Assembly (NCBI GenBank): GCA_036169595.1
Contig: CM069765.1
Location: 486,001 to 550,000 of the forward strand
DNA: 64,000 nucleotides
Direction of reading: 5' to 3'
Source: Dictyostelium firmibasis
Taxonomy: Eukaryota > Evosea > Eumycetozoa > Dictyosteliales > Dictyosteliaceae
The notes below the pieces were generated by a model, which worked only from the letters and a program-made list of their open reading frames with translations, was not told the origin of the DNA and searched no databases. The first letter of the stretch is position 1. Every line of letters starts with the position of its first letter. Shown here piece after piece: positions 59,537 to 62,042 of the stretch. The translations under genes and the position numbers were made by a program.

Positions 59537-59675
59537 GTTTTTTTTTTTAATAACCTCATCCAATTGGATGTGTTCGAATCTAGTTTTTTTATTTATTAAT
59601 TATTTTAATTTAAAATTTTTTTCTGTGACCACGTTAGTTCGTGGTATGACCAAGACTTGAACCAAGGCCATGGAG
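59537..59675 (-). repeat. Short SINE-like repeat, copy 2 (5' truncated)
   Basis: Same family as copies 3 and 4. In minus-strand sense it lacks the first 40 or so bases of the head and begins within CCTCCATGGCC, directly at the target-site sequence GCAAATATTG (59676-59685). The A-tail end abuts CCAAATATGG (59529-59538), a changed form of the same target. 5' truncation is the usual sign of target-primed reverse transcription. Confidence 0.7.
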
Positions 59676-59685
59676 GCAAATATTG

Positions 59686-59869
59686 TTTTTTTTTTTTTTT
59701 TTTTTTAATAACCTCATCCAATTGGATGTGTTCGAATCTAGTTTTTATTTATTAATTATTTTAATTTAAATATTTTTTTCTGTGACCACGTTAAATCGTG
59801 GTATGACCAAGACTTGAACCAAGGCCATGGAGGCTGTGTTATTCAGTGTGAAACCACTATGCTAATCCC
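59686..59869 (-). repeat. Short SINE-like repeat, copy 3
   Basis: Full-length copy of 184 bp. Minus-strand sense: GGGGATTAGCATAGTGGTTT (A box TAGCATAGTGG), B box GGTTCAAGTCT, CACGATTTAACGTGG, body, palindrome CATCCAATTGGATG, then A-tail. It lies between two copies of GCAAATATTG. Confidence 0.8.
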
Positions 59870-59884
59870 CCACGCAAATATTGT

Positions 59885-60065
59885 TTTTTTTTTTTAATAA
59901 CCTCATCCAATTGGATGTGTTCGAATCTTGTTTTTATTTATTAATTATTTTAATTTAAAGTTTTTTTTTTTCTGTGACCACGTTAATTCGTGGTATGACC
60001 AAGACTTGAACCAAGGCCATGGAGGTTGTGTTATTCAGTGTGAAACCACTGTGCTAATCCCCCCA
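59885..60065 (-). repeat. Short SINE-like repeat, copy 4
   Basis: Full-length copy of 181 bp, about 95% like copy 3. The A box lies at 60046-60056 and the B box at 60002-60012 (minus-strand sense). It is bounded by CCACGCAAATATTG at 59870-59884 and 60066-60080. Same orientation as the TRE5 unit that follows. Confidence 0.8.
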
Positions 60066-60078
60066 CCACGCAAATATT

Positions 60079-60080
<2 letters not shown>

Positions 60081-60111
<31 letters not shown>

Positions 60112-60869
60112 TAAATTGAATATCACAGTTTTTTAGGCTGTCTCTCCTCGAGAATAGAACTCGTGTTTATTGTTTTTTTTTTTTTTTTACAGGCTCAATT
60201 AATGTATAAAATTAATGTTTTGAGTGTGTGGCACAAAGGGGAAATAATGTGTCTTTATCTGGCTGGTAACATTTGGTGTTAATTACAAACAGTGATATTT
60301 GATACTTGTGTTAACATTCAAACCAGCACCTTTTTGAATCGATACTTTGGGGTTGATATTTTTTTTTGATATTTTTAGTTTGATATTTTAATTTGATTAT
60401 TTTTTTTTTAATTATTTTTCATTTTTTTTTTGATTTTTTTTTTTTTTTTTTTTTTTAAAAGCCGGATTTTTTTTGCAAAATTTCCTTTATTCTAAAAAAA
60501 AAAGAGTATCAAAATGAATTTGAAAAAATGAATTGTTGATAGTTGTTTGTAATCTGTACACAAATGAGAAATAATGTGTCGTGTGGTTGGTGATTTTTGA
60601 TGTTAATTACAAATAATGATATTTGATACGGGTGTTAACATTTGAAAGTGGCACAACGAAAATGAAAAAAAACTGCGTTTTTTTTCATTTGGTCGATATT
60701 TTTTAATTATTTATTATTATTTTTTTTTTTATTTTTTTTAGAAATAAAAAGTGATAGTTGTTTGTAATCTGTACACAAATGAGAAATAATGTGTCGTGTG
60801 GTTGGTGATTTTTGATGTTAATTACAAATAATGATATTTGATACGGGTGTTAACATTTGAAAGTGGCAC
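60081..60869 (-). mobile_element. TRE5-type non-LTR element upstream of tRNA-Asp
   Basis: The reverse complement matches the unit at 18175-19181 closely, with two front modules (one full and one cut) instead of three. Target duplication CCACGCAAATATTGT occurs at 60066-60080 and 60870-60884. The 5' end is 49 bp upstream of tRNA-Asp and faces it. The A-tail (T-run on plus strand) is at 60081-60110. No ORFs are present. Confidence 0.82.
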
Positions 60870-60918
60870 CCACGCAAATATTGTTTATAGCAGTTCATTA
60901 CACCAATTCAAACAAATA

Positions 60919-60990
60919 TCCTTGTTGGTCTAGTGGTGAGGATTTTCGCCTGTCACGCGAAAGGCCCGGGTTCAATTCCCGGACAGGGAG
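60919..60990 (+). tRNA. tRNA-Asp (anticodon GUC)
   Basis: 72 nt with acceptor stem TCCTTGT/ACAGGGA, discriminator G, A box TGGTCTAGTGGTGAGG, anticodon loop CTGTCAC and T-arm GGTTCAATTCC. There is no intron. A TRE5 unit and SINE-like repeats lie upstream and TRE3-type sequence downstream. Confidence 0.96.
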
Positions 60991-61019
60991 CTTTTGGATA
61001 TGTGAATCCATAGATCATA

Positions 61020-61030
61020 GGATCGACACC
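61020..61030 (+). promoter_or_regulatory. External B box behind tRNA-Asp
   Basis: GGATCGACACC, the same core as behind both tRNA-Glu genes, 30 bp past the tRNA end. Confidence 0.65.
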
Positions 61031-61040
61031 TGGTGCAAGT

Positions 61041-61790
61041 ACGGTAAATTTCAGCAAACAATAACCCAGAAAGATACCTAGGATACTTCTTCACTAAGAA
61101 TGGTATCCACAGGAAAATGCCTGAAATTCTGAGATCAACTCGAGCATCTGTTTTACTTTGGAAAACGACATGGACCACGGTAAAAACTAAAACTAGCATT
61201 CTTAAAGCCTTCGCATTATCAAAACTAACATACTTTTCATATATAGAAAAATATAATGAAAATGAACTGAAACAAATTAACAAAATAGTGGAATGGTTCC
61301 TTTCGGCCTCAAACTACAAAAACTCCACAGGATTCAATGTTATTAATCTCATGAGCGCAAGAAGATCAAGATACCCAATGGAACAGGGTTGAACATATGG
61401 GACATCGAACAAAGACAAAAAGCCCAAAGACTGTGGATAATCAACGAATTTATCCACGCACAAGAAAACAATTCAGTGTCATCAGCCACTCATAAAAGCT
61501 GGAACTTTCAATTAACATCAAATAGAATTTCCTCACAATTTCTAAAGAGTAATATAGATGATTGGAACACTCTGCTGCACAATTTAAATTGATGTAGTAT
61601 CACAAGTCTTATCAACTAATCATAGGTAAAAAAAAAAAAAAATCACAAGTCTTATCATAGGTAAAAAAAAATTTTAAAAAGTAAACAATAAAGATAATTT
61701 AATTAACACCGCCGATAGACCTTGCGTCTAATCATAGGTAAAAAAAAAAATAGGTAAAAAAAAAAAAAAAAAAAAAGAAATTGCTAACTC
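61041..61790 (+). mobile_element. TRE3-type ORF2 fragment with A-tailed 3' ends
   Basis: Beginning about 50 bp after tRNA-Asp, the sequence encodes part of a non-LTR reverse transcriptase downstream of the active site: YLGYFFTKNGIHRKMPEILRS, KAFALSKLTYFSYIE and, after a frame change at about 61389, GLNIWDIEQRQKAQRLWI. It stops near 61592. The tail contains repeated ATAGGT plus A-run units (61622, 61665, 61735), perhaps successive 3' ends. Position and sequence fit TRE3. It is 5' truncated and frameshifted, hence inactive. Confidence 0.7.
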
Positions 61791-61890
61791 ACAATGGACC
61801 AAACTCATTGTTGGATCAATAACATTATGTGGAACAACTTATGTAGTTTTTTTTTTTTTTTTAAAAGAATGAACAACTAATTAAGTTTTT

Positions 61891-62042
61891 TTTTTTTTTT
61901 AATAACCTCATCTAATTGGATGTTCGAATCATGTTTTTATTTTTATTAATTTAATTTTTTTCTGTGACCGAGTTATTTCGTGGTATGACCAAGATTTGTG
62001 GAAGCTGTGTTATTCAGTGTTAAACCACTATGCTAAGCTCCC
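61891..62042 (-). repeat. Short SINE-like repeat, copy 5, upstream of tRNA-His
   Basis: Minus-strand sense: GGGAGCTTAGCATAGTGG, AACACAGCTTCC, a deletion across the B-box area, GTCATACCACGAAATAAC, body, ATTCGAACATCC and A-tail (T-run 61885-61901). Its head end lies 44 bp upstream of tRNA-His, in the same orientation as copies 2-4. Flanks GAACAACTTATG and GAACTTATGAGG may be diverged target duplications. Confidence 0.7.

Follow-up and report, generated by a model that had tools for sequence, protein, structure and literature searches.

Five copies of a repeat of about 180 bp, here called S5, lie on the minus strand between positions 57174 and 62042 of a 64-kb window of the Dictyostelium firmibasis genome (C1:486001-550000), which raises the question of what this repeat is and how so short a sequence comes to lie beside tRNA genes. 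A preliminary description of the window had proposed a candidate short interspersed nuclear element (SINE) with a tRNA-like head that uses the targeting of TRE5 retrotransposons. In D. discoideum, TRE5 elements lie 40-54 bp upstream of tRNA genes in the opposite orientation, and TRE3 elements 40-150 bp downstream in the same orientation (PMC5911963, cited, like all sources here, from excerpts of the text). Having scanned the genome (31,455,843 bases, 12 contigs), we put a probability of roughly 0.87 on the joint reading that S5 is a SINE mobilised in trans by a TRE5-type long interspersed nuclear element (LINE), group C below, and that two further SINE families, S3 and SD, are directed to the TRE3 site.

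S5 is a SINE found upstream of tRNA genes

A 30-nt pattern from the S5 head, allowing up to 3 mismatches, matched 162 places genome-wide and a 32-nt pattern from the tail matched 238, against none for either pattern reversed; in the genome search that the preliminary description had proposed, S5 thus stands far above chance. Coordinates were listed for 100 of the 162 heads and 100 of the 238 tails, and the stretches analysed (numbered with L below) are part of those listed. All 20 tail-picked stretches have S5 body sequence ahead of the tail, several copies being truncated or internally deleted, and the surplus of tails over heads fits 5' truncation, which occurs at variable points in 33 of 122 copies (up to two of the 122 count double through the overlap of L038 with L096). 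Identity averages 92% among 91 full-length copies (one double), and 17 pairs (one of which may be double) are at least 99% identical; therefore, some copies are young. Flanking duplications of at least 8 nt border 60 of 89 full-length copies, compared with 10.6% when flanks are paired at random. Three S5 pieces of L001, which overlaps the window, were removed from the duplication, identity/array-order and position counts. At about 180 bp, the element has no room for open reading frames (ORFs) ORF1 and ORF2 with their endonuclease and reverse transcriptase (RT), and is not itself a TRE5 LINE. Short, ORF-less, dispersed, A-tailed, bordered by variable duplications and subject to 5' truncation, S5 is a SINE with the hallmarks of a retroposon.

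The placement of S5 supports TRE5-type targeting, to about the 40-54 bp upstream window and in the opposite orientation. The 30 best-match stretches (95 kb) contain 32 tRNA genes by ARAGORN, against 1.15 expected from the 379 tRNA genes given for the D. firmibasis TNS-C-14 assembly (PMC11193728); tRNA gene numbers around S5 are stretch-and-type combinations. S5 is upstream of its closest tRNA gene and faces it, at any distance, in 29 of these 30 stretches (3.2 kb), in 19 of 20 tail-picked stretches (6.4-6.9 kb) and in 14 of 20 head-picked stretches (0.7-3 kb). Counted by piece, after removal of five doubles (those of L001 and two L038 pieces overlapping L096, the latter removed from this count only), 114 of 140 pieces are upstream and facing, 2 are upstream on the same strand, 4 are downstream and 20 have no tRNA gene in their stretch; tandem copies were counted one by one, and the pieces are thus not independent. 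S5 stands behind 64 tRNA genes, which represent 18 amino-acid types; the innermost copy is within 60 bp in 45 cases, 43 of them at 41-56 bp. This is far from a random distribution lacking target duplications, the outcome that the preliminary description had set against its own proposal. Where S5 copies have no tRNA gene in their stretch, a search for other genes of RNA polymerase III (Pol III) gave no Rfam match at E<=0.5 in the 9 of 10 such stretches that it covered (L100 lay outside); it also took in three stretches that do hold tRNA genes. In L006, the proximal S5 copy is followed by sequence resembling the element at 60080-60869 described below, and its tRNA gene may therefore lie past the end of the stretch.

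Within the window, every S5 copy that had been named (59686, 59885, 57174, 59537 and 61891) is present on the minus strand, and the described plan of about 180 bp holds: A box TAGCATAGTGG, B box GGTTCAAGTCT, an A/T-rich body, the palindrome CATCCAATTGGATG and an A-tail, with 55 bp from the start of the A box to the end of the B box, where about 50 bp had been given. The full-length reference copy (about 59686..59869) has AAATATTG on its tail side (59678) and CCACGCAAATATTG on its head side (59870), and a second full-length copy (about 59884..60065, 95% identical to the reference) has CCACGCAAATATTG on both flanks (59870 and 60066). The third member of this array (59538..59677, 96%), flanked by AAATATGG (59530) and AAATATTG (59678), starts at query position 38-39 and is the copy rightly reported as 5' truncated at its target site. 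A near full-length copy (57174..57350, 91%) lies away from tRNA genes, the closest being 3.57 kb off, and a diverged copy (61886..62042, 81%, or 78% with a shorter query) has its head 44 bp upstream of, and facing, tRNA-His(GTG) (62087..62158, plus strand). The claim that heads face their tRNA gene from about 45-50 bp upstream is borne out genome-wide by the distances above; in the window, it applies directly only to the copy ending at 62042.

The three-copy array lies 855-1241 bp from its target, tRNA-Asp(GTC) (60919..60991, plus strand), because an ORF-less TRE5-like element of about 790 bp (60080..60869, minus strand), whose 5' end is 49 bp from the gene, now fills the site. The 14-nt CCACGCAAATATTG forms the target-site duplication closest to tRNA-Asp (60870..60883) and recurs at 60066, on the other side of the ORF-less element, and at 59870, with the shortened AAATATTG at 59678; these are inter-copy target duplications. 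With the same 14 nt at three places, the tRNA-Asp site has been reused repeatedly, last by the ORF-less element, and S5 arrays in this way show single tRNA sites used again and again. The ORF-less element has repeated 5' modules and an A-tailed 3' end related to that of group E TRE5 LINEs (see below), and looks like a non-autonomous, internally deleted TRE5. Both it and a second copy at 18175-19181 (plus strand) carry repeated 5' modules of about 215 bp and start about 50 bp from a tRNA gene, facing it. Long exact matches to the window occur in L006, L013, L034, L042, L047 and L055, adjoining S5 copies or a group C LINE; those in L006 and L055 are the same ORF-less element, which in L055 stands behind the LINE.

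The S5 3' end and group C LINEs

An RT search of the genome, with 150 of 178 candidates scored, yielded LINEs that we sorted by ORF length into groups A to E, with long ORFs in groups C and E. Group C ends in AGATTCGAACACATCCAATTGGATGAGGTTATT(A)n, and in both copies read the last 33 nt before the A-tail are identical to S5; the 3' ends of groups A, B, D and E differ from it. A 361-nt query from the group C 3' end (40 of 246 candidates scored) matched those two copies at 100% and other LINE-type sequences at 73-95%, and matched S5 copies over their last 80-100 nt only. The RT of group C is 46% identical to that of TRE5-type group E, 34% to that of TRE3-type group B and, over shorter stretches, 42-43% to the available parts of group A, and its best outside relatives are Dictyostelium proteins (up to 62%). 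Its RVT_1 domain scores at E 9.7e-36, and its endonuclease at E 1.2e-4, under the Pfam cut-off (22.4 vs 24.5 bits). At one locus, in L063, a group C LINE starts 47 bp upstream of tRNA-Ile and faces it, with TTATCTTTTAAG on both sides. A group E copy of about 5.2 kb in L031 is also upstream of a tRNA gene and facing, and copies of group B (L045, L039) and group A (L016, L025) stand downstream of a tRNA gene in the same orientation. The window itself holds a group D 3' end downstream of tRNA-Asp (61699-61739, plus strand).

Because of the identical 3' end, group C is the likely source of the proteins that mobilise S5. The SINE RNA is non-coding, and targeting must therefore come from proteins made elsewhere. 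The original proposal of a SINE with TRE5-type targeting is upheld by copy number, duplications, truncations, distance and orientation, together with the 3' end of a TRE5-type LINE. Eight 3' ends were folded, from five LINE groups and three SINEs (S5 and group C sharing one hairpin), and each has a hairpin near the A-tail; 1 to 21 of 500 shuffles, which keep single-base composition only, were equally stable. These predicted structures suggest stem-loop recognition of 3' ends. Many RT matches cluster at C1:4.5-4.8 Mb and at one end of C2-C6, C7 and C11, often in ORFs of about 667 aa; the DIRS-1 clusters reported in D. firmibasis would give this pattern.

Sister SINEs downstream of tRNA genes

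S3, of about 300 bp, combines two S5-like heads about 126 bp apart with a different tail, its head being 82% identical to that of S5 over 95 bp (E 1e-21). Its head matched 111 places genome-wide and its tail 132, with none for the reversed patterns; coordinates were listed for 100 heads and 100 tails, and the stretches partly came as S5 neighbours. In L020, S3 stands downstream of tRNA-Val between two copies of AACAAAGAGACTCCAT, and all 16 full-length copies with readable ends have a flank match of at least 8 nt, compared with 7.0% in the control. Among 60 S3 pieces, 43 are downstream of a tRNA gene on the same strand, 25 of them within 150 bp; 14 have no tRNA gene in the stretch, 2 are downstream in the opposite orientation and 1 is upstream. 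Ten of 19 tail-fetched stretches contain a tRNA gene, with S3 downstream and in the same orientation in 9.

SD, of 237 bp, has 42 matches genome-wide and none with the reversed pattern. One SD copy, in L068, lies within an S3 head 65 bp downstream of tRNA-Glu, where an 18-nt duplication is visible by eye. Of 24 SD pieces, 16 are downstream of a tRNA gene on the same strand and 5 have no tRNA gene; the other 3 are upstream, each behind an S5 copy and in its orientation, at 9, 47 and 140 bp, and one of these also has an S5 piece of the opposite strand 14 bp away. Both S3 and SD therefore show TRE3-type targeting, about 40-150 bp downstream of tRNA genes and in the same orientation.

These sister families were missed by the preliminary description, though one fragment stood in its list: the supposed diverged S5-plan relative at 14187 is really the 3' half of an S3 copy, downstream of tRNA-Glu(TTC) (13453..13525, plus strand) and in the same orientation. 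This 5' truncated S3 (14202..14356, plus strand) comprises the second head and the tail, with 93% identity to S3 positions 142-267 and an exact tail match at C1:500323. The same tRNA gene is followed, all on the plus strand, by an SD fragment from the 5' part of that element (13570..13609, 87% over 45 nt), an S3 fragment 91 bp downstream of the gene (13617..13683, 89% over 71 nt) and the 3' part of an SD (14388..14477, 98% to SD positions 148-237).

Heads, proposed mechanism and rival explanations

A-box- and B-box-like stretches occur at like spacing in the S5 head and in both S3 heads. The alignment of the S5 head to a tRNA gene scores better than every one of 120 shuffles and includes 16 identical nt shared with tRNA-Trp, whereas the scores of the two S3 heads are reached by 19 and 18 of 120 shuffles. 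The tRNA-like head first described is only partly supported, by its boxes and its resemblance to tRNA-Trp, and the idea of the heads as intact tRNAs found no support. Transcription of S5 and S3 by Pol III would be consistent with these boxes, and the predicted transcripts may start with GTGGGGG in S5 and CCGGGGGG in S3.

In the mechanism that we propose, S5 would be transcribed from a type-2 Pol III promoter (A box/B box) inside its head, and group C LINE proteins would take up the S5 RNA in trans via the shared 3' stem-loop and A-tail. The RNA would then be brought to a tRNA gene and its Pol III machinery under the guidance of TFIIIB/TFIIIC, which has been studied for TRE5-A in the literature we drew on, and target-primed reverse transcription would insert S5 about 45-55 bp upstream with its head towards the gene. 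Later insertions would reuse the site by the tRNA gene and shift older copies outward, generating tandem arrays. S3, with two related heads and another tail, and SD would be delivered about 45-150 bp downstream in the same orientation. We lean, by a little, towards regarding the families as a natural tail-swap, in which the 3' tail alone, by choosing a TRE5 or a TRE3 protein, sets the side, and in which SINE heads may also be Pol III landing pads for TRE3-type insertions, SINEs building each other's targets; this last suggestion comes from the three SD pieces right behind S5 copies, which resemble TRE3-type elements behind a tRNA B box.

Several observations weigh against this joint reading. 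Twenty-six of the 140 S5 pieces fall outside the positional rule (6 lie elsewhere, and for 20 the stretch contains no tRNA gene), and duplications of at least 8 nt flank just 11 of 33 5' truncated S5 copies and 5 of 20 truncated S3 copies. Both box consensuses are kept in 57 of 84 full-length S5 copies, TTTT, a possible Pol III stop, lies inside 19 of these 84, and a tRNA covariance model gave no match even at E<=10 for the SINE heads of L020 (one S5, one S3 and part of another). The order of copies in tandem arrays is a weak record of age: of 17 arrays, 11 have a proximal copy that is nearer the family (p=0.04), and no difference separates near from far copies (p=0.40). We set that use of the arrays aside. 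The LINE end that would pair with S3 is CATGGTGATTAGAAATTCTAATCCCAATAATATT(A)n, and no LINE with this tail was found at 19 tail sites lacking a listed head (18 S3 pieces and one bare S3-type tail behind a group A LINE) or at three group A ends (L082, L115 and L116; L117 ended short); the ends read for TRE3 LINEs, in groups A, B and D, differ from the S3 tail.

The last point bears on the possibility that the A-tail alone suffices for any LINE to carry S3 and SD, in the manner of L1 and Alu, with the split between sides arising from selection or transcription timing. TRE3 LINEs likewise end in oligo(A), no S3 tail was found on a LINE in 11 stretches resembling the group B 3' region, and no LINE with the SD tail appeared among the LINE ends read. 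Such carriage predicts both sides for each family, but S5 has 114 pieces upstream and facing against 6 elsewhere, and S3 has 43 downstream on the same strand against 3. The last 10 nt of S3 and LINE A (CAATAATATT / CATTAATATT) and the last 6 nt of SD and LINE D (ATAGGT) are alike, though possibly by chance. We judge A-tail carriage unlikely and, from position only, infer a TRE3-type carrier for S3 and SD. We are also rather doubtful that the head has no working Pol III promoter and that S5 RNA comes from tRNA-gene read-through or Pol II. The failed tRNA-model match and the internal TTTT runs agree with this; they are countered by the like spacing of the boxes in S5 and both S3 heads, by the tRNA-Trp resemblance of the S5 head (not found for the S3 heads) and by the SD pieces, whose place behind S5 recalls that of TRE3-type elements behind a tRNA B box.

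The common 3' end and the ORF-less element at 60080-60869 could also be taken to mean that S5 is an internally deleted TRE5, a short internally deleted element (SIDE) like TRE5-A.2 or the R2 derivatives, with a head of no separate origin. LINE C in L055, L056, L063 and L064, however, matches S5 at positions 92-160 only (217800-219300 of one copy lay outside the comparison), an extra S5 match in L055 being a separate S5 copy. The 5' region of LINE C in L063 (about 2900-3600) consists of several tandem A/T-rich modules, reminiscent of the modular TRE5-A ends, and the S5 head is instead common to S3, which has another tail. The four LINE stretches also answer the earlier concern that S5 hits might be only internal parts of a longer TRE, and we consider a deletion origin very improbable. 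Tandem copies and a strict position would also result if the repeat had multiplied along with tRNA loci, through duplication at the DNA level, or as a tRNA-preferring DNA transposon (miniature inverted-repeat transposable element, MITE). Either origin is scarcely credible for a repeat behind tRNA genes of 18 amino-acid types whose duplications vary between sites, whose copies have A-tails and are often 5' truncated at variable points, and in which inspection by eye alone, with no dedicated program, revealed no terminal inverted repeats.

The SINE mobilised by a group C LINE that we favour has close parallels. ORF2-less TRE5-A.2 is mobilised in trans (PMC5391098, PMC5633606), a parallel to what is proposed for S5, and TRE-TRE tandems are known (PMC5391098). 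S5 resembles TRE5-A and TRE5-A.2 in its position about 40-54 bp upstream, opposite orientation, tandems, A-tail and variable duplications, and differs from TRE5 in lacking an ORF, in its size of about 180 bp (compared with about 5.2 kb for the group E copy), in its A/B-box head and in having only the 3' end in common. S3 and SD differ from TRE3 in being SINE-sized, with tails that match no TRE3 end read. As in the eel SINE and UnaL2, S5 has a 3' end common to its partner LINE, and it adds tRNA-gene targeting. The eel pair was reportedly described by Kajikawa and Okada in 2002, and we know of no target choice at Pol III genes in it. In such tail-sharing pairs, the SINE takes its 3' end from the partner LINE, whose machinery recognises it (PMC10886601). 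Non-autonomous R2 and R2/R1 hybrid derivatives in 28S genes (PMC3414825) are, like S5, non-autonomous and inherit a LINE target site; by the title of that paper they are internal LINE deletions, whereas the S5 and S3 heads are separately derived.

The excerpted Dictyostelium retrotransposon literature treats LINEs, long terminal repeat elements and ORF2-less TRE5 and names no Dictyostelium SINE, with subscription journals thinly covered, and one may be in print. Nor does one appear among the titles and opening lines of abstracts that literature searches returned; a search for site-specific SINEs, too narrowly worded to carry weight, gave no hits. The word SINE was not found in the available text of the D. 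firmibasis assembly paper, which took its transposons from Repbase limited to D. discoideum (PMC11193728), and a default RepeatMasker table gives 88 'SINEs' for D. discoideum and 57 for D. purpureum, with the family unnamed in the passage (PMC4683709). Trans mobilisation, from TRE5-A.2, and the ordinary parts of a SINE are already known; what sets the present families apart is their targeting to tRNA genes and the target-side split between related families. If the joint reading is true, a non-coding RNA can obtain the tRNA-gene targeting of TREs entirely in trans, and the choice of side becomes testable in a laboratory amoeba by short-tail swaps without altering the LINE proteins.

A G+C-rich repeated sequence of about 250 bp, at 14840-15130 in the window and 600-890 in L033, starts near ACACTGGCGAGACGTCTC; the L033 copy has no Rfam match at E<=0.5 and adjoins an S5 copy without a tRNA gene in its stretch. 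GGTTCGA-type boxes downstream of tRNA genes (L020 963-1020, L068 260-280 and window 62180-62200) are probably the external B boxes described for Dictyostelium, and in L020 and L068 they are followed directly by S3 or SD.

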